This document shows positions 503 through 27,431 of a stretch of 27,573 nt of DNA, piece after piece. The notes under the pieces were generated by a model. The model worked only from the letters and a program-made list of their open reading frames with translations, did not search any database and was not told where the DNA came from. The stretch's first letter is position 1. Each line of letters opens with the position of its first letter. Both the position numbers and the translations under genes were made by a program. The stretch spans positions 14,236 to 41,808 of the forward strand of contig DYJV01000015.1 in the NCBI GenBank assembly GCA_020722945.1, given 5' to 3'. The DNA comes from Candidatus Methylomirabilis sp. (lineage in GTDB: Bacteria > DYJV01).

Positions 503-2260
503 TTACGGAGTATAAGTGTATTCAGGAACAATATTTTTTATAAATGCTCTTTTATCTTCTACTTTAAATAAATCATCTATCTTTTGTTTCAGCTCCTCAA
601 AATCGTATCTAAAAGGTTTTGCAATAAATATTGACTCATACTTTGTTTTAAGCTCAGCACTATCAAGAAGTAGCTCCTCATAAAGCTTCTCACCTTTTCT
701 TAATCCTGTAAATTCAATTTTTATATTATCCTTGTTGTATAAAGCAATCATTCTACTTGCAAGATCAACTATTTTTACCGGTTCACCCATATCAAGTATG
801 AATATCTCCCCACCCTTTGCCATTGCAGTTGCCTGCAAAACAAGCTTGCAAGCTTCAGGAATAAGCATAAAAAATCTTGTTATCTCAGGGTGTGTAACAG
901 TCACAGGTCCACCTTTGAGGATCTGCTCTTTAAATTTGGGGATCACACTTCCGCTGCTATCAAGAACATTACCAAATCTAACACTTGATATCACTGTCTT
1001 TCTTGAATCTATACTTTGAGCATATATCTCAACAACTCTTTTGGAAGCCCCCATTACACTTGTAGGCCTAACAGCCTTGTCAGTAGAGATAATAAGCAAT
1101 TTATCAACAGAGTGCTTGATAGATAAATCAATTACATTTATAGAGCCCAAGATATTATTTACAATACACTCATCAACATTCTCTTCACAAATATGAACAT
1201 GTTTGTATGCAGCAGCATGGATAACTATGCTTGGTTTGTGTGTGGTAAAAACTTTATCAAGGGTGTCTTTATCTGTAACTGAAATCAATCTGATGATTGC
1301 ATGAGGAAACTCCTCATAAACTCTGTATAGATTGAACTCTGAATTATCCACTAAAATAAGTTTCTCAGCACCAAAAGTAGAACATTGTCTGACTATCTCA
1401 CTACCTATACTCCCACCAGCACCTGTAATAAGGAGCGTTTTCCCCTTTATAAAATTTTTTATTAGCTCTGTATCAAGGTCTTTAGGTTTTCTTGCTAAAA
1501 GATCCTCTATCGATATATCCTCTAATTTTTTATTCTCCTCAAAGTATATAGCTTTCTTTATCTCAGCTACTCCATTTTTTTTCAATAAATTAAAAATATT
1601 ATCAAGCTTTGAAGGTGAATATTCGGTGGTAATTATTGCAGAGTGGATCCCCTTTCTTTTTACTATTTCAGGGAGATTCTTTAATCTTTCTATCTTTAGA
1701 TTCAGCATATATGTCTCAAAAAGATTTTCATTTTCATCAAATATTACTATAGGCTGATATTCTATTTCGCCGTTGAGGTAACTTTTGATAATATTTTCTG
1801 TCCGTGTATTTGCACCTATGATTAGTGCAGGTTTTAAGTCTGTTCTTATATTTTCAGCTATCAATCGTTTTGATATTCTTAAAACACCAATAAATATAAA
1901 TGAGATTGCAAAATCTATAAAGATAACACTCCTTGGAAAAGGGTTAAAGAAATCTGAAAAGAAATTAAAGAGAGTAAAAAATATAAGATATGTTAAAAGA
2001 TGAGCCTTAAATATCTTTTTGGCATCAATAAGACTGAAGAATCTCCATGCTACAAAGTAAATTTTGAAAATAAAGAGGAAAAATATCTTTAAAATAGATA
2101 GAATTATAAAACTTTTATATAACCCTGCAAAAAACTCATCACCTATATCAAAGTTAAATCTGAGATAAAATGATAGGTATAAGGAGAAGAAAGATATAAA
2201 AATATCTGCTGTTAAAAAAAAGATAGCTCTGATACTCTTTGTAGGCTTTAAAATAGTCAT
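503..2260 (-). CDS. Membrane-bound nucleotide-sugar 4,6-dehydratase/epimerase (FlaA1/CapD/PglF/WbpM type)
   Basis: 585 residues, the full length of the membrane-anchored polysaccharide dehydratase family. Several hydrophobic segments fill residues about 11-130. A first nucleotide-binding-like region (LKPALIIGA) lies near 142-150. The catalytic short-chain dehydrogenase domain starts with TGAGGSIGSE at 279-288. The usual YxxxK is replaced by MxxxK (M403 GAS K407) after the STDKAVRPTS segment, as is known for PglF-type enzymes that make UDP-4-keto-6-deoxy-GlcNAc. By family it acts on a UDP-sugar at the cytoplasmic face of the inner membrane and feeds glycan synthesis. The start codon overlaps the lgt stop (ATGA, 2257-2260), so it is probably the last gene of the operon. 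The exact sugar substrate cannot be read from sequence. Confidence 0.9.
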   Translation of the reverse strand: MTILKPTKSIRAIFFLTADIFISFFSLYLSFYLRFNFDIGDEFFAGLYKSFIILSILKIFFLFIFKIYFVAWRFFSLIDAKKIFKAHLLTYLIFFTLFNFFSDFFNPFPRSVIFIDFAISFIFIGVLRISKRLIAENIRTDLKPALIIGANTRTENIIKSYLNGEIEYQPIVIFDENENLFETYMLNLKIERLKNLPEIVKRKGIHSAIITTEYSPSKLDNIFNLLKKNGVAEIKKAIYFEENKKLEDISIEDLLARKPKDLDTELIKNFIKGKTLLITGAGGSIGSEIVRQCSTFGAEKLILVDNSEFNLYRVYEEFPHAIIRLISVTDKDTLDKVFTTHKPSIVIHAAAYKHVHICEENVDECIVNNILGSINVIDLSIKHSVDKLLIISTDKAVRPTSVMGASKRVVEIYAQSIDSRKTVISSVRFGNVLDSSGSVIPKFKEQILKGGPVTVTHPEITRFFMLIPEACKLVLQATAMAKGGEIFILDMGEPVKIVDLASRMIALYNKDNIKIEFTGLRKGEKLYEELLLDSAELKTKYESIFIAKPFRYDFEELKQKIDDLFKVEDKRAFIKNIVPEYTYTP

Positions 2261-3021
2261 TTACCCTTTCTCTTTTTTATGTAGATGAAGGCAATAATTG
2301 AGATAGTAAAAACAACTATGCTTACTGCCTGTGATGTAGATATAAATCCTAACATTCCCCGAGGGTCCCCTCTAAAACATTCAACTACAAATCTTCCTAT
2401 TGAATAGAGGATTCCATATAGGCATACCACCTGTCCATAAAAAGTTCTACCTTTTTTTAAAACATAAAGAAGAATGAGGAATATCAAAAAATTTGCAATC
2501 ATATGGTATATCTGAGTAGGATGAAGATATACATTAATAGGAGCAAGACTCATCGGGGATGTAAATTTTACCGCCCATGGTAATGAGCAAGGCTTCCCAT
2601 AACAGCATCCCGCAAACAGACAACCTATCCTCCCTATTGCCTGCCCAAGTGGAAGAACAGTCAGTAGTATATCACCAAGTTTTAAAATATTTAGATCTTT
2701 ATGCTTTAACTTATAAAGTAAGCCTGCTCCAACAGCAGCTATAAATCCACCGTAGTAAACCAATCCCCCCTCCCATATTTTTAAAATATTGAGAGGATTT
2801 TTTAAGTAAAATTTATACTCAACTATTACATACATTAATCTTGCTCCAATAACTGCAGATATCAGCAGATAAAAAGATATATCAAAGATGAGATCTTTAC
2901 TGAAATTATCCTTTTCTGATAGATAAGCCGCAAGATAGATTGCTGCAAAGAAACCGAGTGCAACAAATAAACCGTAAAAATGAACTTGAAATCCATATAT
3001 TTCGAAAAGTAGTGGATGCAT
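2257..3021 (-). CDS. lgt: Prolipoprotein diacylglyceryl transferase
   Basis: 254 residues with about seven hydrophobic segments. Lgt transfers diacylglycerol from phosphatidylglycerol to the lipobox cysteine of prelipoproteins, the first step of lipoprotein maturation, in the inner membrane. Recognisable motifs are WEGGLVYYGGF (83-93), the family signature GRIGCLFAGCCYGKP (130-144), HPTQIYHM (167-174) and GRFVVECFRGDPRG (209-222), which carry the conserved Arg, Gly, His and Glu positions. The cysteine-rich form of the signature occurs in many Lgt proteins. It starts 2 bases after the lspA stop and overlaps the next gene by ATGA, so enzymes 1 and 2 of the pathway are translationally adjacent here. 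Confidence 0.96.
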   Translation of the reverse strand: MHPLLFEIYGFQVHFYGLFVALGFFAAIYLAAYLSEKDNFSKDLIFDISFYLLISAVIGARLMYVIVEYKFYLKNPLNILKIWEGGLVYYGGFIAAVGAGLLYKLKHKDLNILKLGDILLTVLPLGQAIGRIGCLFAGCCYGKPCSLPWAVKFTSPMSLAPINVYLHPTQIYHMIANFLIFLILLYVLKKGRTFYGQVVCLYGILYSIGRFVVECFRGDPRGMLGFISTSQAVSIVVFTISIIAFIYIKKRKGK

Positions 3022-3023
3022 AT

Positions 3024-3512
3024 TTAACCTCTTCTCTTATTAATAAAGAAATTACTATATAAAATTAAAACAACACCAATAGAGATATAACTATCAGCAA
3101 AGTTAAAAGCTGCCCAATGGAAATTTTTCCAATATAGGTCAACAAAATCAACCACATAACCGTAAAAATATCTGTCAATTATATTTCCAAAAGCACCTGC
3201 AACAATAAGAGTAAAGCCAAAACGCTCTATAGGTGATATAGATTTGGAAAATAGTGTAAATATATATATTGCAAGAGCAGTAAAGATAGGGAGAAGTATA
3301 AGGAGAGGAAACCTTAATGATTTTTCAAGGTTACCTAATAGCCCAAAAGCAACCCCACTATTTTTAACATAAATAAGTGAGAAAAAACCTTTAATAACAT
3401 CAATTTTTGTAAAAAAGTTAAAGTGTGTTTTGACATAAAGTTTAGATAGATAATCGATGAGTATCAAAAACGAGAGTATAGGGAGGTCTTTTAATATTCT
3501 CTTAAACAACAT
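3024..3512 (-). CDS. lspA: Lipoprotein signal peptidase II
   Basis: 162 residues with four predicted membrane segments, typical of the family. This aspartic peptidase cleaves the signal peptide of diacylglyceryl-modified prolipoproteins in the inner membrane. The catalytic pair is visible: D113 in GNIIDR and D140 in FNFADS. The conserved KNSGVAFG segment is at 50-57. Its ATG follows the TAG stop of the nitrilase-fold gene with no bases between, and lgt starts 2 bases after its own stop, so the three genes are almost certainly cotranscribed. In many bacteria lspA follows ileS. Here ileS is about 12 kb away on the other strand. Confidence 0.96.
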   Translation of the reverse strand: MLFKRILKDLPILSFLILIDYLSKLYVKTHFNFFTKIDVIKGFFSLIYVKNSGVAFGLLGNLEKSLRFPLLILLPIFTALAIYIFTLFSKSISPIERFGFTLIVAGAFGNIIDRYFYGYVVDFVDLYWKNFHWAAFNFADSYISIGVVLILYSNFFINKRRG

Positions 3513-4688
3513 CTACTCATTCCCTGAAGGTAAGTTGTAGATAGACTCTTCACCACCCAAAAGCTCTTTGCTATCCATCTTGTTCCACTGGTTGTTTGCA
3601 TACTTATAAACACCATTTACCTTGACCGGAACTCTTGAACTTCTCGGATCCTTATCCCTCAAAAAATCAAGTTTGACATGAAAAAGTCTTGTCTTGGAAG
3701 TAAACCTTATGCGTGATAGTGGAGCATTATTAAAATCATCAATATCGATCTCTGAAAATTTTAAACGAGGTATTTTGCAATTTTCAGATAAAACTATATG
3801 ACTATATCCAAAATTACAATCTTTTCTGTCCAATGTTTCGAGGTAAGATTCGTCAGATGAGTTGACAAATATAGAGATAGTATCCCTTGTTCCGGGAGTT
3901 TTAAAGAGATGCTCCCCATAAAAACCTATAAGTGTATCCCTAAAAACTCTATGCTCAGGTTTTGGATTGCACTCAATAACTATAAGTAGGTCCAGATCTT
4001 GTCTTTTTGTAAAGTAAAGCTCATTTGCTTTCTTTACGATAGAGTATATATTTGACCAGTAGTTATCTCTATAAACAAAATCAAAACATATCAGTGCCAT
4101 AAAATTAAAAGGGATCATGCTTGAAGTAAAGAGATAAAAATATTTGCTTTTGTATAAGTCCATATTTGCATCAAGAGACTCTTCACCAGAAAAAGGGTGT
4201 GTCTTTGCCTGTATGAAAACTTGTAACCTTTCAGAGTTGTCCTTTATGATTACAAACTCAAGATTTACAGGTTTATCAGAAGGGGTATCATTTGCATCGT
4301 TGCTGACTATGTCGTATGCTTCTTCATTAAATTGTTTAAATTTGGTAAGATAGTTGTAAAAATTAGAAAAGTTGAGATGCTCACTTCCAAAGATAACTAC
4401 ACAATTTTTATCTAACTTCTCATCCAATATTTCGATAAATCTGTCTACAAACTCGCAAGGGATCGAATCTTCAGGGAAGATTATAAAATTACTATTCGAT
4501 ATTTTACAATTTTTGTCATCATACTTATCAAATATTTTTATTATCTGTTCAAATTTATCTTTAGGTTTTTCACTAACATAAAGAAACCCTTTTTTCTTTA
4601 ATTGGCAGGGAACCTGAGCAGCAAGAAGGTTGATATTGCTTAAATTTGAGAAGAATAGAGGGACTCTTTTATCTATTATACCTATCAT
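3513..4688 (-). CDS. Soluble nitrilase-superfamily (carbon-nitrogen hydrolase fold) protein of unknown role
   Basis: 391 residues, no signal peptide and no membrane segment. The Glu-Lys-Cys triad of the nitrilase fold can be read in order: E73 in IIFPEDSIP, K162 in QAKTHPFSGEE, and C201 in ALICFDFVYRD. The residues around each (FPE, K-x-H-x-F-x-x-E-E, I-C-F/Y-D) match the family. The 39-residue Lys-to-Cys spacing is closer to soluble nitrilases and amidases than to Lnt. Lnt, the lipoprotein N-acyltransferase, belongs to this superfamily but has an N-terminal multi-helix membrane domain that is absent here. The gene abuts lspA with zero spacing and lgt follows, so a link to lipoprotein or envelope metabolism is a guess from context. 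The C-terminal ~90 residues match nothing I recognise. No strong Shine-Dalgarno precedes the ATG. Confidence 0.75.
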   Translation of the reverse strand: MIGIIDKRVPLFFSNLSNINLLAAQVPCQLKKKGFLYVSEKPKDKFEQIIKIFDKYDDKNCKISNSNFIIFPEDSIPCEFVDRFIEILDEKLDKNCVVIFGSEHLNFSNFYNYLTKFKQFNEEAYDIVSNDANDTPSDKPVNLEFVIIKDNSERLQVFIQAKTHPFSGEESLDANMDLYKSKYFYLFTSSMIPFNFMALICFDFVYRDNYWSNIYSIVKKANELYFTKRQDLDLLIVIECNPKPEHRVFRDTLIGFYGEHLFKTPGTRDTISIFVNSSDESYLETLDRKDCNFGYSHIVLSENCKIPRLKFSEIDIDDFNNAPLSRIRFTSKTRLFHVKLDFLRDKDPRSSRVPVKVNGVYKYANNQWNKMDSKELLGGEESIYNLPSGNE

Positions 4689-4750: not shown

Positions 4751-5185
4751 TTAAAATTTATCCCTGAAATCTCTATAACCCTTTAAATTGTGAGATTCAA
4801 TGTTAAAATGTTTAGATAAAATGTAATTAGTCCCCTCTGTAAGTGGAAAATTTTGGAAATTGTTTCTATTTACCCACTCTGCATTTAAAACTTCACTCTT
4901 GTCAATTTTAAGATTGAAATCTTGACAAATAGACTTAAAAAAAATTATTAAGTATTGAAAATCGTTAAAGAAAACTTCAAAAATATCAAAGAGTGAAGGG
5001 TTGTAAATAGTAAGTCCAACTTCCTCCCAAACCTCCCTCTTTACACAATCAAATACACTCTCACCATCTTTTAGATTGCCACCTGGCATAACATAAAGAT
5101 TTTTAAAGGGTGGAATGGCTCTCTCTGTTATTAAAATATCTTTTGCACTATTTTCAATAAGGGCTACGCACCCTACTTTAATCAT
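4751..5185 (-). CDS. NUDIX hydrolase
   Basis: 144 residues, a single compact domain. A perfect NUDIX box runs from G36 to L58: Gly, five residues, Glu42, seven residues, then REVWEEVGL (50-58). The metal-binding glutamates E51, E54 and E55 are all present, so it should be an active Mg-dependent hydrolase of a nucleoside diphosphate linked to another moiety. The substrate is not readable. MutT-like (oxidised nucleotides), nucleotide-sugar and ADP-ribose types are all possible. Its ATG overlaps the argG stop as ATGA (5182-5185), so translation is probably coupled. A 62-base AT-rich gap separates it from the nitrilase-fold gene downstream. Confidence 0.9.
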
Positions 5186-6378
5186 TTGGATATCATATTT
5201 CTTATCTTTAATCTTAAGGCATTTAGTTTGATAAAACCATCAGCATCTTTTTGGTCATAAACATAATCCTCTTCAAAAGTTGCAATTTCGGGATTGTAAA
5301 GTGATTTGTCAGATTTTCTACCTGCAATTATGACATTACCTTTGTAAAGTTTGACCTTTACAACTCCTGATACAACACTCTGCATTTCATTAAACATCCC
5401 TTGTAAAATCTCTCTGTCAGGGGAAAACCAAAATCCATTGTAAACAAGCTGGCTATACTTTGGAACAAGTGAATTTCTTAAATTTAAAACTTCTCTGTCA
5501 AGAGTAAGTGATTCAACCGCTCTATGTGCATGGTAAAGGATTGTGCCTCCGGGAGTTTCATAAACGCCCCTTGATTTCATCCCAACAAATCTGTTTTCAA
5601 CAATATCAACTCTTCCAATACCATGTTTACCACCTAACTCATTTAACTTTTCAAATAGTGATGCAGCAGACATAGCCACCCCATTTATCATCGTAGGGAT
5701 ACCTCTATCATAAGTAATTTCGATATATTCAGGTTTGTCTGGTGCTTTTTCTGGGGAAACTGAGAGAAGAAACATATCCTCATCAGGCTCTCTCCATGGA
5801 TCTTCAAGTATTCCACCCTCAAAACTTATATGAAGAAGATTTCGGTCACTGCTGTAAGGTTTCTCTTTGGTCACAGGCACAGGAATACCATTTTTATTTG
5901 CAAAATTAATCAACTTTTCTCTTGAATTGAGATCCCATATCCTCCATGGTGCAATAACTTTGATTTCAGGCATAAGTGCATAGTAAGTAAGTTCAAATCT
6001 TACCTGATCATTCCCCTTCCCTGTGGCCCCATGGCTTACAGCATCTGCTGACTCTTTGCGAGCTATCTCTATCTGCTTTTTTGCTATCAGAGGACGAGCT
6101 ATTGATGTTCCAAGAAGGTAGTAATTTTCGTAGATTGCAGCACCTTTAAACATCTCAAAAACATAATCTTTTACAAACTCATCTTTAAGATCTTCAATGT
6201 AAACTTTTGATGCACCTGTTTTGAGAGCTTTCTCCTTTATCCCATCAAGCTCCTTACCTTGACCAAGGTCTGCTGCAAAAGCAATAACTTCACAGTCGTA
6301 ATTTTCTTTCAACCATTTTAGTATAACTGATGTATCAAGACCTCCAGAGTATGCTAATACTATCTTTTTTATGCTCAT
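5182..6378 (-). CDS. argG: Argininosuccinate synthase
   Basis: Joins citrulline and aspartate with ATP hydrolysis to AMP, the penultimate step of arginine synthesis, in the cytoplasm. The ATP-binding PP-loop AYSGGLDTS is at residues 9-17. Other family stretches include [17 protein letters not shown] and [15 protein letters not shown]. Counted from the start chosen here the protein has 398 residues, the usual length. An ATG five codons upstream (6391-6393) also opens the frame, but the sequence GGAGG lies about 6 bases before the ATG at 6376-6378, inside the longer reading, so the protein most likely begins [13 protein letters not shown]. The gene follows tolB by 18 bases and overlaps the NUDIX gene. 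No other arginine gene is in the window. Confidence 0.96.
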
Positions 6379-6396
6379 TTTATCCTCCATCAATTT

Positions 6397-24217: not shown

Positions 24218-24242
24218 TATCTCATAATTATTTCATGAGATA
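24218..24242 (-). terminator. Possible carB terminator hairpin
   Basis: Read on the minus strand, TATCTCAT (24235-24242) pairs with ATGAGATA (24218-24225), and TTTATTGTTT follows. The first arm lies in the last carB codons. An 8-bp stem plus a T-rich tail fits a weak intrinsic terminator. Confidence 0.35.
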
Positions 24243-27200
24243 AAAATCCTGCAGTGGCTTTACCCCCTTATCACAATTTTTTGAAGCCTCTATCGCCATT
24301 ATAGCTGCTTTGGCTCCTTCAAGGGTTGTAAAATAGGGGATATTATACAAAACAGTATTACTCCTTATCTCTGTGGAGTCCTCCTTTGATTTTACATCAG
24401 CAGGACTATTGAGCACAAGGTCTATCTCCTTATTTTTTATGTAATCTATAATATTTGGACGCCCTTCATTCATTTTAAAAATTTTCTTATTTTCAATACC
24501 TCTCTCTGAAAGGAAATTGGATGTCCCCTCTGTTGCATATATCTCAAAATCAAGCTCTTTAAATTTTTTTGCAAGCTCATCTACACCCTTTTTATTCCAC
24601 ATAGTTATCAAAACCTTACCACTTGTGGGGAGTGTATTATTTGCTGATATTTGTGATTTGAGGAATGCAAGTGGGAAATTTATATCTATACCCATTACTT
24701 CACCTGTAGATTTCATTTCAGGACCAAGTAATGTATCAACTCCGATAAACTTTGAAAATGGGAAAACAGCCTCTTTAACAGAGTAGTATCTGGGGGTTAT
24801 ATTCTCTTTGAGATTAAAATCTCTTATCTTCTTCCCAAGCATTAGTTTGGCTGCAATTCTTGCAAGGAGTATCCCTGTCGATTTTGATACAAAAGGGACT
24901 GTCCTTGATGCTCTTGGATTGACCTCTAAGATGTAAACATCCCCGTTTTTTACTGCAAATTGAACATTCATCAAACCTATAACTTTTAGGCTGAGTGCAA
25001 GCTCGATAGTTTGCCTTTTTATCTCCTGAATAATTGATTCTGGAAGTGAATATGGTGGCAAAGAGCAAGCACTATCTCCAGAATGTATCCCTGCACCCTC
25101 TATATGCTCCATTACTCCACCAATAAAAACTTCCTCCCCGTCAGATACACAATCAACGTCTATCTCATAAGCCTCTGATAAAAATTTGTCTATTAAAACA
25201 GGATGTTCTGGAGATACTTTTACCGCTTTTTTCATATAGTTTTCAAGGCTATCCTCATCATAAACTATCTCCATAGCCCTCCCCCCAAGAACATAAGATG
25301 GTCTTACAATAACAGGAAAACCTATCTTTCTGGCTATTTTAAGAGCTTGAGTGTAATCAAAGGCAGTGTCATTTTCAGGCTGCCTGAGATTGAGTTTGTT
25401 TATAAGTTGTTTGAACTTTTCTCTGTCTTCAGCAACATCAATATTGTCAGGGTCTGTCCCAATAATAGGAGCTCCTGCATTTTTGAGTCTCTTAGCTAAT
25501 TTGAGAGGTGTCTGACCACCAAACTGAACTATGATCCCATCAGGATTTTCTGTAGATACAATATTCATAACATCTTCAAAAGTAAGTGGCTCAAAATATA
25601 ATTTATCTGATATATCGTAATCTGTGCTGACAGTTTCAGGATTACAGTTTACCATGATTGCTTCGTAATTCTCCTCCCTTAGTGCAAAAACAGCATGAAC
25701 ACAGCAGTAATCAAACTCTATCCCCTGACCTATTCTATTGGGTCCTCCACCTAAGATCATAACTTTCTTTCTATCTGTCTTTGCAGATTCATCCTCATCT
25801 TCGTATGTAGAGTAGAGATATGGAGTATATGCCTTAAACTCTCCTGCACATGTATCAACCATTTTGTAGACAGGTTTGATGTTAAAATTTCTCCTCAACT
25901 GGGCAATATCATCCTCTTTTTTGTTTGTGAGCTGAGCAATACGCCTATCAGAGAAACCTTTTTTCTTGAGAAGAGTAAGATTGGTTGAATTGAGCATTGA
26001 AAATGGCTGTTCAACAAGAGCAATCTCCTCTTTTATTATGTCAAGGATATTATACAAAAACCATTTATCAACAAAAGTCAATCTATGTATCTCGTCAATG
26101 CTCATACCACGTCTAAATGCTTCACCTATTGCCCATAGTCGTTTACTGTTGGCATCACGGAGATTATCACGTAACTGCTCCTCTGATATCTCTTCAAAAC
26201 TTATATCGAGCCCATAAGTATCCTCTTCCAGAGATCTTATAGCTTTTTGGAGAGATTCTTTGAATGTCCTACCGATCCCCATAACCTCACCGACAGATTT
26301 CATTTGGGTGGTAAGAGTGGAATTTGCTCCGGGAAATTTCTCAAATGTAAAGCGAGGAATTTTGGTAACTACATAATCTATTGTAGGTTCAAATGATGCA
26401 GGTGTCTGCTTTGTTATATCGTTTTTTATCTCATCAAGTGTATAACCAACTGCTAATTTGGCAGCTATTTTGGCAATTGGGAAACCAGTGGCTTTTGAAG
26501 CAAGTGCCGAACTTCTCGAAACTCTTGGATTCATCTCAATTATAACAAGCTCTCCACTATCAGGGTTGACTGCAAACTGGATATTAGAACCACCTGTATC
26601 AACACCTATTTCACGAATTACATCAATAGATGCATTCCTCATTATCTGATACTCTTTGTCAGTAAGGGTCTGAGCAGGTGCAACCGTTATGCTATCTCCA
26701 GTGTGAACTCCCATTGGATCAAGATTCTCAATAGAACATATAATAACAACATTGTCATTTTTGTCCCGCATCACTTCAAGCTCATACTCTTTCCACCCAA
26801 TAAGTGATTTCTCTATAAGTATCTCATTAACGGGACTACAATTTAACCCCCACTTTACATAGTTTTCGTATTCCTCTATATTGTAGGCAATATTTCCACC
26901 AGTGCCGCCAAGGGTAAATGAAGGTCTTATTATTACAGGGAAACCTATATCTTTGATTATCTCATTTGCTTGCTCGACATTGTTAGCATAGCCGCTTTGT
27001 GGAAGTTTAAGACCTATCTTCTGCATTGCTTTTTTGAAAAGCTCTCTATCTTCAGCTTTTTTGATAGATTCAAGCTTTGCAGCAAGAATTTCAACATTAT
27101 ACTTCTCAAGAACACCAGCTTCCGCAAGTCCAACTGTAATATTGAGTGCAGTCTGCCCACCAAGAGTTGGCAAAAGAGCATCAGGCCTCTCCTTTTCTAT

Positions 27201-27431
27201 TATCTTTGTAAGAAACTCAACAGTAAGAGGCTCTATATATGTTCTATCTGCAAAGTCTGGGTCTGTCATTATTGTGGCAGGATTACTATTGACAAGAACA
27301 ATATCGTAACCCTCCTCTTTAAGAGCCTTACACGCTTGAGTCCCTGAATAATCAAATTCACATGCCTGACCGATTATGATGGGACCTGAACCTATAAGTA
27401 AAATTTTCTTGATATCTTCTCTTTTAGGCAA
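24228..27431 (-). CDS. carB: Carbamoyl-phosphate synthase large subunit
   Basis: 1067 residues, full length. With the CarA amidotransferase it makes carbamoyl phosphate from glutamine, bicarbonate and two ATP, for arginine and pyrimidine synthesis. The internal duplication is plain: [20 protein letters not shown] opens the first half and [19 protein letters not shown] the second (from about residue 560). Each half has an ATP-grasp domain. The last ~130 residues form the allosteric MGS-like domain. The start codon is TTG (27429-27431), with GAGG about 7 bases upstream and the usual [11 protein letters not shown] beginning. carA is not in the window. Together with argG, two arginine-route genes occur here in separate transcripts. 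Confidence 0.98.

Follow-up and report, generated by a model that had tools for sequence, protein, structure and literature searches.

An undescribed family of nitrilase-like proteins encoded with a Nudix hydrolase among arginine-biosynthesis genes

Results

A protein family linked by gene order to argG, a Nudix hydrolase and argH

We found that a 27,573-nucleotide stretch of a Candidatus Methylomirabilis contig (hereafter the window) encodes an undescribed member of the nitrilase superfamily, belonging to a family that two lineages commonly carry but that is rare in the rest of our sample (Table 1). The protein probably acts in the cytosol as a carbon-nitrogen hydrolase (amidase), and its gene order ties it to a Nudix hydrolase and to amino-acid biosynthesis; from the neighbouring genes, we read the latter as the synthesis of arginine and, in many genomes, also of lysine. 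Its resemblance to its homologues, together with its predicted fold, is far beyond chance. When searched alone, the window protein gave no meaningful match in Pfam, NCBIfam, PHROG or the PDB, and no match among plasmids, phages and genome contigs. Its one strong match was to the PADLOC LmuA model PDLC03850 (74.9 bits, 1.1e-21, residues 34-282). A search of 386 genomes with this model returned two further genomes with a 390-residue homologue (41-43% identity), and an alignment built from the first homologues led to six loci in a genome collection. The window protein is 33-44% identical over its full length to homologues from two other lineages. The first-pass annotation, made from the window sequence, knew of no described family with such a placement, and the lack of a described family holds: the window protein matches no nitrilase model of Pfam, NCBIfam or PHROG, and we found no description of the family in the open-access literature searched.

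Table 1. Position of the nitrilase-like gene and its neighbours in the window.
Feature	Coordinates	Strand	Evidence and remarks
Nitrilase-superfamily protein, 391 aa from ATG	3513..4688	-	Residues E73, K162, E169/E170, C201; conservation; predicted model and fold; LmuA model
Nudix hydrolase, conserved partner gene	4751..5185	-	PF00293, 2.2e-15; neighbour in homologous loci
argG, argininosuccinate synthase, conserved neighbour	5182..6393	-	NF001770, 642 bits
lspA	3024..3512	-	TIGR00077, 112.5 bits; argH occupies its place in homologous loci
lgt	2257..3021	-	TIGR00544, 149.2 bits; family elsewhere without lgt linkage

Among genomes sampled one per species, many of them metagenome-assembled genomes (MAGs), the family is present in 161 out of 277 members of the Geobacter-type class (the one that includes a MAG titled Geobacteraceae) and in 8 out of 12 genomes of another phylum (that of genome G244). 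Of the 386 genomes, which are spread over the domain, none outside the window's genome and the G244 phylum had a full-length member. The tree of the family follows the two lineages. In the remaining 116 of the 277 class members, some of which may be incomplete genomes, the family was not found, and the gene therefore looks dispensable. Neither Pfam nor NCBIfam gives a nitrilase match for this family, which occurs in well over 100 Geobacter-type genomes.

To describe the neighbourhood, loci were picked by protein similarity only, blind to their neighbours, and neighbours were counted in the best-scoring loci. All 38 best-scoring homologue genomes carried at least one of argG, the Nudix gene and argH within approximately 1.5 kb of the nitrilase-like gene, and nearly all of those with sufficient flanking sequence had the order argG-Nudix-nitrilase-argH, which occurs in two lineages. 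Where more flanking sequence is available, the cluster is preceded by argB and argD-like genes and followed by lysA, dapF, dapA and dapB. In Geobacter sulfurreducens, argG is GSU0153. The same arrangement recurs in lower-scoring genomes, some of which have a second copy apart from the arg genes; in one genome (G446), the sole family copy lies apart from them. Genomes without the gene have argG-argH or argG-Nudix-argH, as if the Nudix gene had come first and the nitrilase gene had been added beside it. The intermediate order without the nitrilase gene (argG-Nudix-argH) is seen at loci L095, L099, L100, L103, L104, L105, L109, L111 and L113. As further observations, the Geobacter-type copies that have no arg genes around them (L063, L064, L069, L076, L077 and L078) fall into two groups in the tree and have varied neighbours, some of them transposase-like, and one locus (L041, genome G585) reads pdxA-nitrilase-argH, with argG and the Nudix gene missing upstream.

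The window keeps the order argG-Nudix-nitrilase, with lspA-lgt standing where argH usually lies; the argH of this genome is on another contig (C2) of a fragmented assembly (184 contigs, contamination 5.8%). The argG and Nudix genes overlap by 4 bases, and the Nudix gene lies upstream of the nitrilase-like gene at a distance of 62 bases. Since the window argG is 77% identical to its closest relative, the argG of the only other genome of the same order, the contig looks native. The window Nudix protein has diverged (31-39% identity to the other Nudix neighbours), so that its orthology rests on position. It also matches the PADLOC candidate PDC-S07 (6.7e-14), which is probably a mere general Nudix match.

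Predicted fold and active site

The first-pass annotation had proposed a soluble protein without membrane segments, with a nitrilase fold and a Glu73-Lys162-Cys201 triad, and each of these points agrees with our analysis. The three residues lie at the positions given there and, together with Glu169 and Glu170, are invariant in 45 of 45 non-redundant homologues. Asp203, Arg207, Cys240-Asn-Pro-Lys243 with His246, and Phe256-Tyr-Gly-Glu259 are invariant in the same 45 sequences. Judged from the alignment, this pattern speaks for what would be a functional enzyme whose substrate is conserved rather than a decayed relic. No membrane segment was detected in the protein: over 19-residue windows, its Kyte-Doolittle mean peaks at 1.58.

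An AlphaFold2 model computed from the 45 non-redundant sequences reached a pLDDT of 85.4 and a pTM of 0.89, with stretches of low confidence close to the active site, among them residues 167-174 and 205-209. It supersedes a poor model from 8 sequences (pLDDT 57), the structure search of which was meaningless. Using the new model, Foldseek returned eight structures at E < 0.001, all of the nitrilase superfamily, and the match to yeast Nit2 had an E-value of 1.5e-5. The best among the VIA-align matches listed was the N-terminal amidase 5k61 (Z 17.7, rmsd 3.9 Å, 254 residues), and the matches to XC1258 (Z 17.1, rmsd 3.3, 235 residues) and to 3n05, a NAD synthetase with a nitrilase-type domain (Z 16.6, rmsd 3.5, 240 residues), scored similarly; the other matches listed are nitrilase-superfamily amidases, nitrilases and NAD synthetases with a nitrilase-type domain. 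These top scores are ties within the superfamily, and the substrate is not readable from them. DRT1 and Lamassu structures were not among the fold matches listed, an absence that does not exclude likeness. As modelled, the protein has the predicted alpha-beta-beta-alpha sandwich of the nitrilase superfamily, and the invariant residues would supply its Glu-Lys-Cys triad with a second Glu.

Yeast N-terminal amidase Nta1, Nit2/omega-amidase and D-carbamoylase have the predicted fold and the catalytic residues in common with the window protein but only about 11-16% identity to it, and none of the 45 members matched PF00795 (CN_hydrolase) at E <= 0.1. Profile searches of the PDB found no nitrilase, and when the family profile was compared with that of an ordinary CN hydrolase from the window's genome, only the Glu motif aligned (probability 1.9%). 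The assignment to the superfamily therefore rests on the predicted fold and the residues.

A proposed amidase near the argG-argH step

Starting from the family, the conserved gene order, the predicted fold and the invariant residues, which were observed or computed directly, we infer the catalysis, the class of substrate and the cooperation with the Nudix enzyme as follows. Cys201 would attack an amide, with Glu73 as general base; the intermediate would be stabilised by Lys162 together with either Glu169 or Glu170, and the product released would be ammonia or an amine. Less certainly, the substrate may be a small amide- or ureido-bearing metabolite from near the argG-argH step, and the Nudix enzyme may clear a related by-product, so that the two would form a housekeeping or damage-control pair. 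The place between argG and argH, together with the Nudix gene, points to a reaction close to arginine synthesis, either a step or a repair, that has not been described. An amidase had been among the options of the first-pass annotation and is still the best guess. The pairing resembles NitFhit, in which a nitrilase is likewise combined with a hydrolase of nucleoside-polyphosphate-type compounds; this is an analogy only, as Nit is fused to Fhit in NitFhit, whereas here the genes are separate and Nudix takes the place of Fhit. We also considered a missing step of the arginine pathway (the deacetylase) and rejected it. In each of the 13 genomes tested, genomes that carry the gene among them, ArgJ scored above its cut-off, which indicates that the nitrilase-like protein is no substitute for the normal deacetylation, and in the window's genome ArgJ is encoded elsewhere. 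A literature search on argininosuccinate anhydride repair yielded nothing useful.

Relatives in anti-phage defence and other readings

The nearest catalogued relatives of the family are anti-phage effector nitrilases. All 45 members match the PADLOC LmuA model (best 7.1e-31) and 19 match RT_UG5-nitrilase weakly, the window protein itself having no match to the latter at E 0.01; profile comparison gave probabilities of 97.1% for LmuA and 97.3% for a STAND protein. LmuA proteins with C-N hydrolase domains have been reported (PMC10586767), and DRT class 3 proteins (DRT1/UG5; PMC13275509) have a nitrilase-type domain with a catalytic tetrad, as the family is predicted to have. One relative, in genome G002, adjoins a true LmuB: the Lamassu-type pair at L019:10597-15934 consists of a nitrilase-like LmuA and a 1191-residue LmuB-like SMC protein (LmuB, 6e-64). 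By analogy with what has been proposed for Lamassu LmuA and DRT1, the window protein could be a domesticated or stand-alone anti-phage effector, its nitrilase destroying an essential metabolite once triggered. The E, K and C motifs of LmuA align with the family, and the window protein has the LmuA-type N-terminal C-N hydrolase effector domain. However, the match stops at profile position 288 of 604, within an ORF of 391 residues that has neither the C-terminal docking domain of LmuA nor the reverse transcriptase domain that DRT class 3 carries in the same protein, and the window neighbours are argG, Nudix, lspA and lgt rather than LmuB and LmuC. In addition, the branches to the LmuA and STAND domains in the tree are very long, and the family had no hit in viral contigs, plasmids or phages. 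Because the locus is a stable housekeeping one in two lineages and no sensor partner accompanies the gene, we favour the amidase reading over a role in defence, which we regard as unlikely, if the strongest of the alternatives.

The family is a tractable housekeeping relative of suicide-effector nitrilases, and such a relative in a culturable group would offer an easier handle on their substrates. The DRT1 authors pose the substrate of the nitrilase as an open question (PMC13275509). We can speculate, at long odds, that the abortive-infection nitrilases of Lamassu, DRT and STAND proteins arose either from this family, as a housekeeping branch, or in parallel with it, and that the family acts on the same essential nitrogen metabolite as they do; if so, its substrate would show what the suicide effectors destroy. 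On the STAND side, genome G137 encodes two large related STAND-like proteins (L090:1365-5732 and L090:12548-17023) in which the nitrilase-like domain is flanked by a Ser/Thr kinase on one side and by NB-ARC and TPR repeats on the other. We know of no described defence system with this architecture.

The gene might also be an ordinary passenger, a nitrilase-fold amidase unrelated to arginine and held in place by operon inertia, since gene order within long operons can persist without common function. The class members in which the gene was not found, the second copies outside the arg genes and the pdxA-nitrilase-argH locus would all fit this reading. It explains less well why two distant lineages strongly retain the Nudix-nitrilase pair between argG and argH and why the pair is found beside argG in the window too, and we give it a fairly small chance of being right. 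A glutaminase subunit, as in NAD synthetase, that provides ammonia from glutamine to a neighbouring amidotransferase or synthase is a more doubtful proposal still. The closest folds do include NAD synthetases that have a nitrilase-type domain (3n05), but the scores of these matches do not separate them from the rest of the superfamily, the gene has no ammonia-using synthase as a constant neighbour, and ArgG uses aspartate, not ammonia.

Finally, we rejected the suggestion of the first-pass annotation that the nitrilase-like protein acts with LspA and Lgt in lipoprotein maturation or peptidoglycan metabolism, a reading that we now consider very improbable: the genes do abut in the window, but homologous loci carry argG, Nudix and argH, with lspA or lgt beside the gene at none of those surveyed (the 38 best-scoring genomes and the lower-scoring ones), the protein has no membrane segment, and a normal lnt is present elsewhere in the same genome (292.9 bits to TIGR00546, G000:C91). 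The first-pass annotation had itself named a lack of conserved lspA/lgt linkage among homologues as grounds for refutation. The catalytic domain of Lnt has the nitrilase-superfamily fold, as the window protein is predicted to have; Lnt also has a fused membrane domain, which the window protein lacks, along with any match to TIGR00546. The earlier description of the junction was accurate, in that the TAG stop of the nitrilase-like gene is followed at once by the ATG of lspA and the lspA stop is 2 bases from the start of lgt, but it left out the conserved Nudix and argG genes on the other flank. What stands of that interpretation is the fold, the triad, the solubility and the lack of a described family, and the adjacency to lspA-lgt is a local rearrangement or coincidence of the window's genome.

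Two other genes of the window were noted. A 307-residue protein at 14329-15252 matches deoxyhypusine synthase (PF01916, 30.5 bits) and is flanked by peptidase-like and isoleucyl-tRNA-synthetase-like genes. At 24228-27431 lies a carB-like gene (carbamoyl-phosphate synthase large subunit), recognised by reading the sequence, which would be a further arginine/pyrimidine gene on the contig of the nitrilase-like protein.
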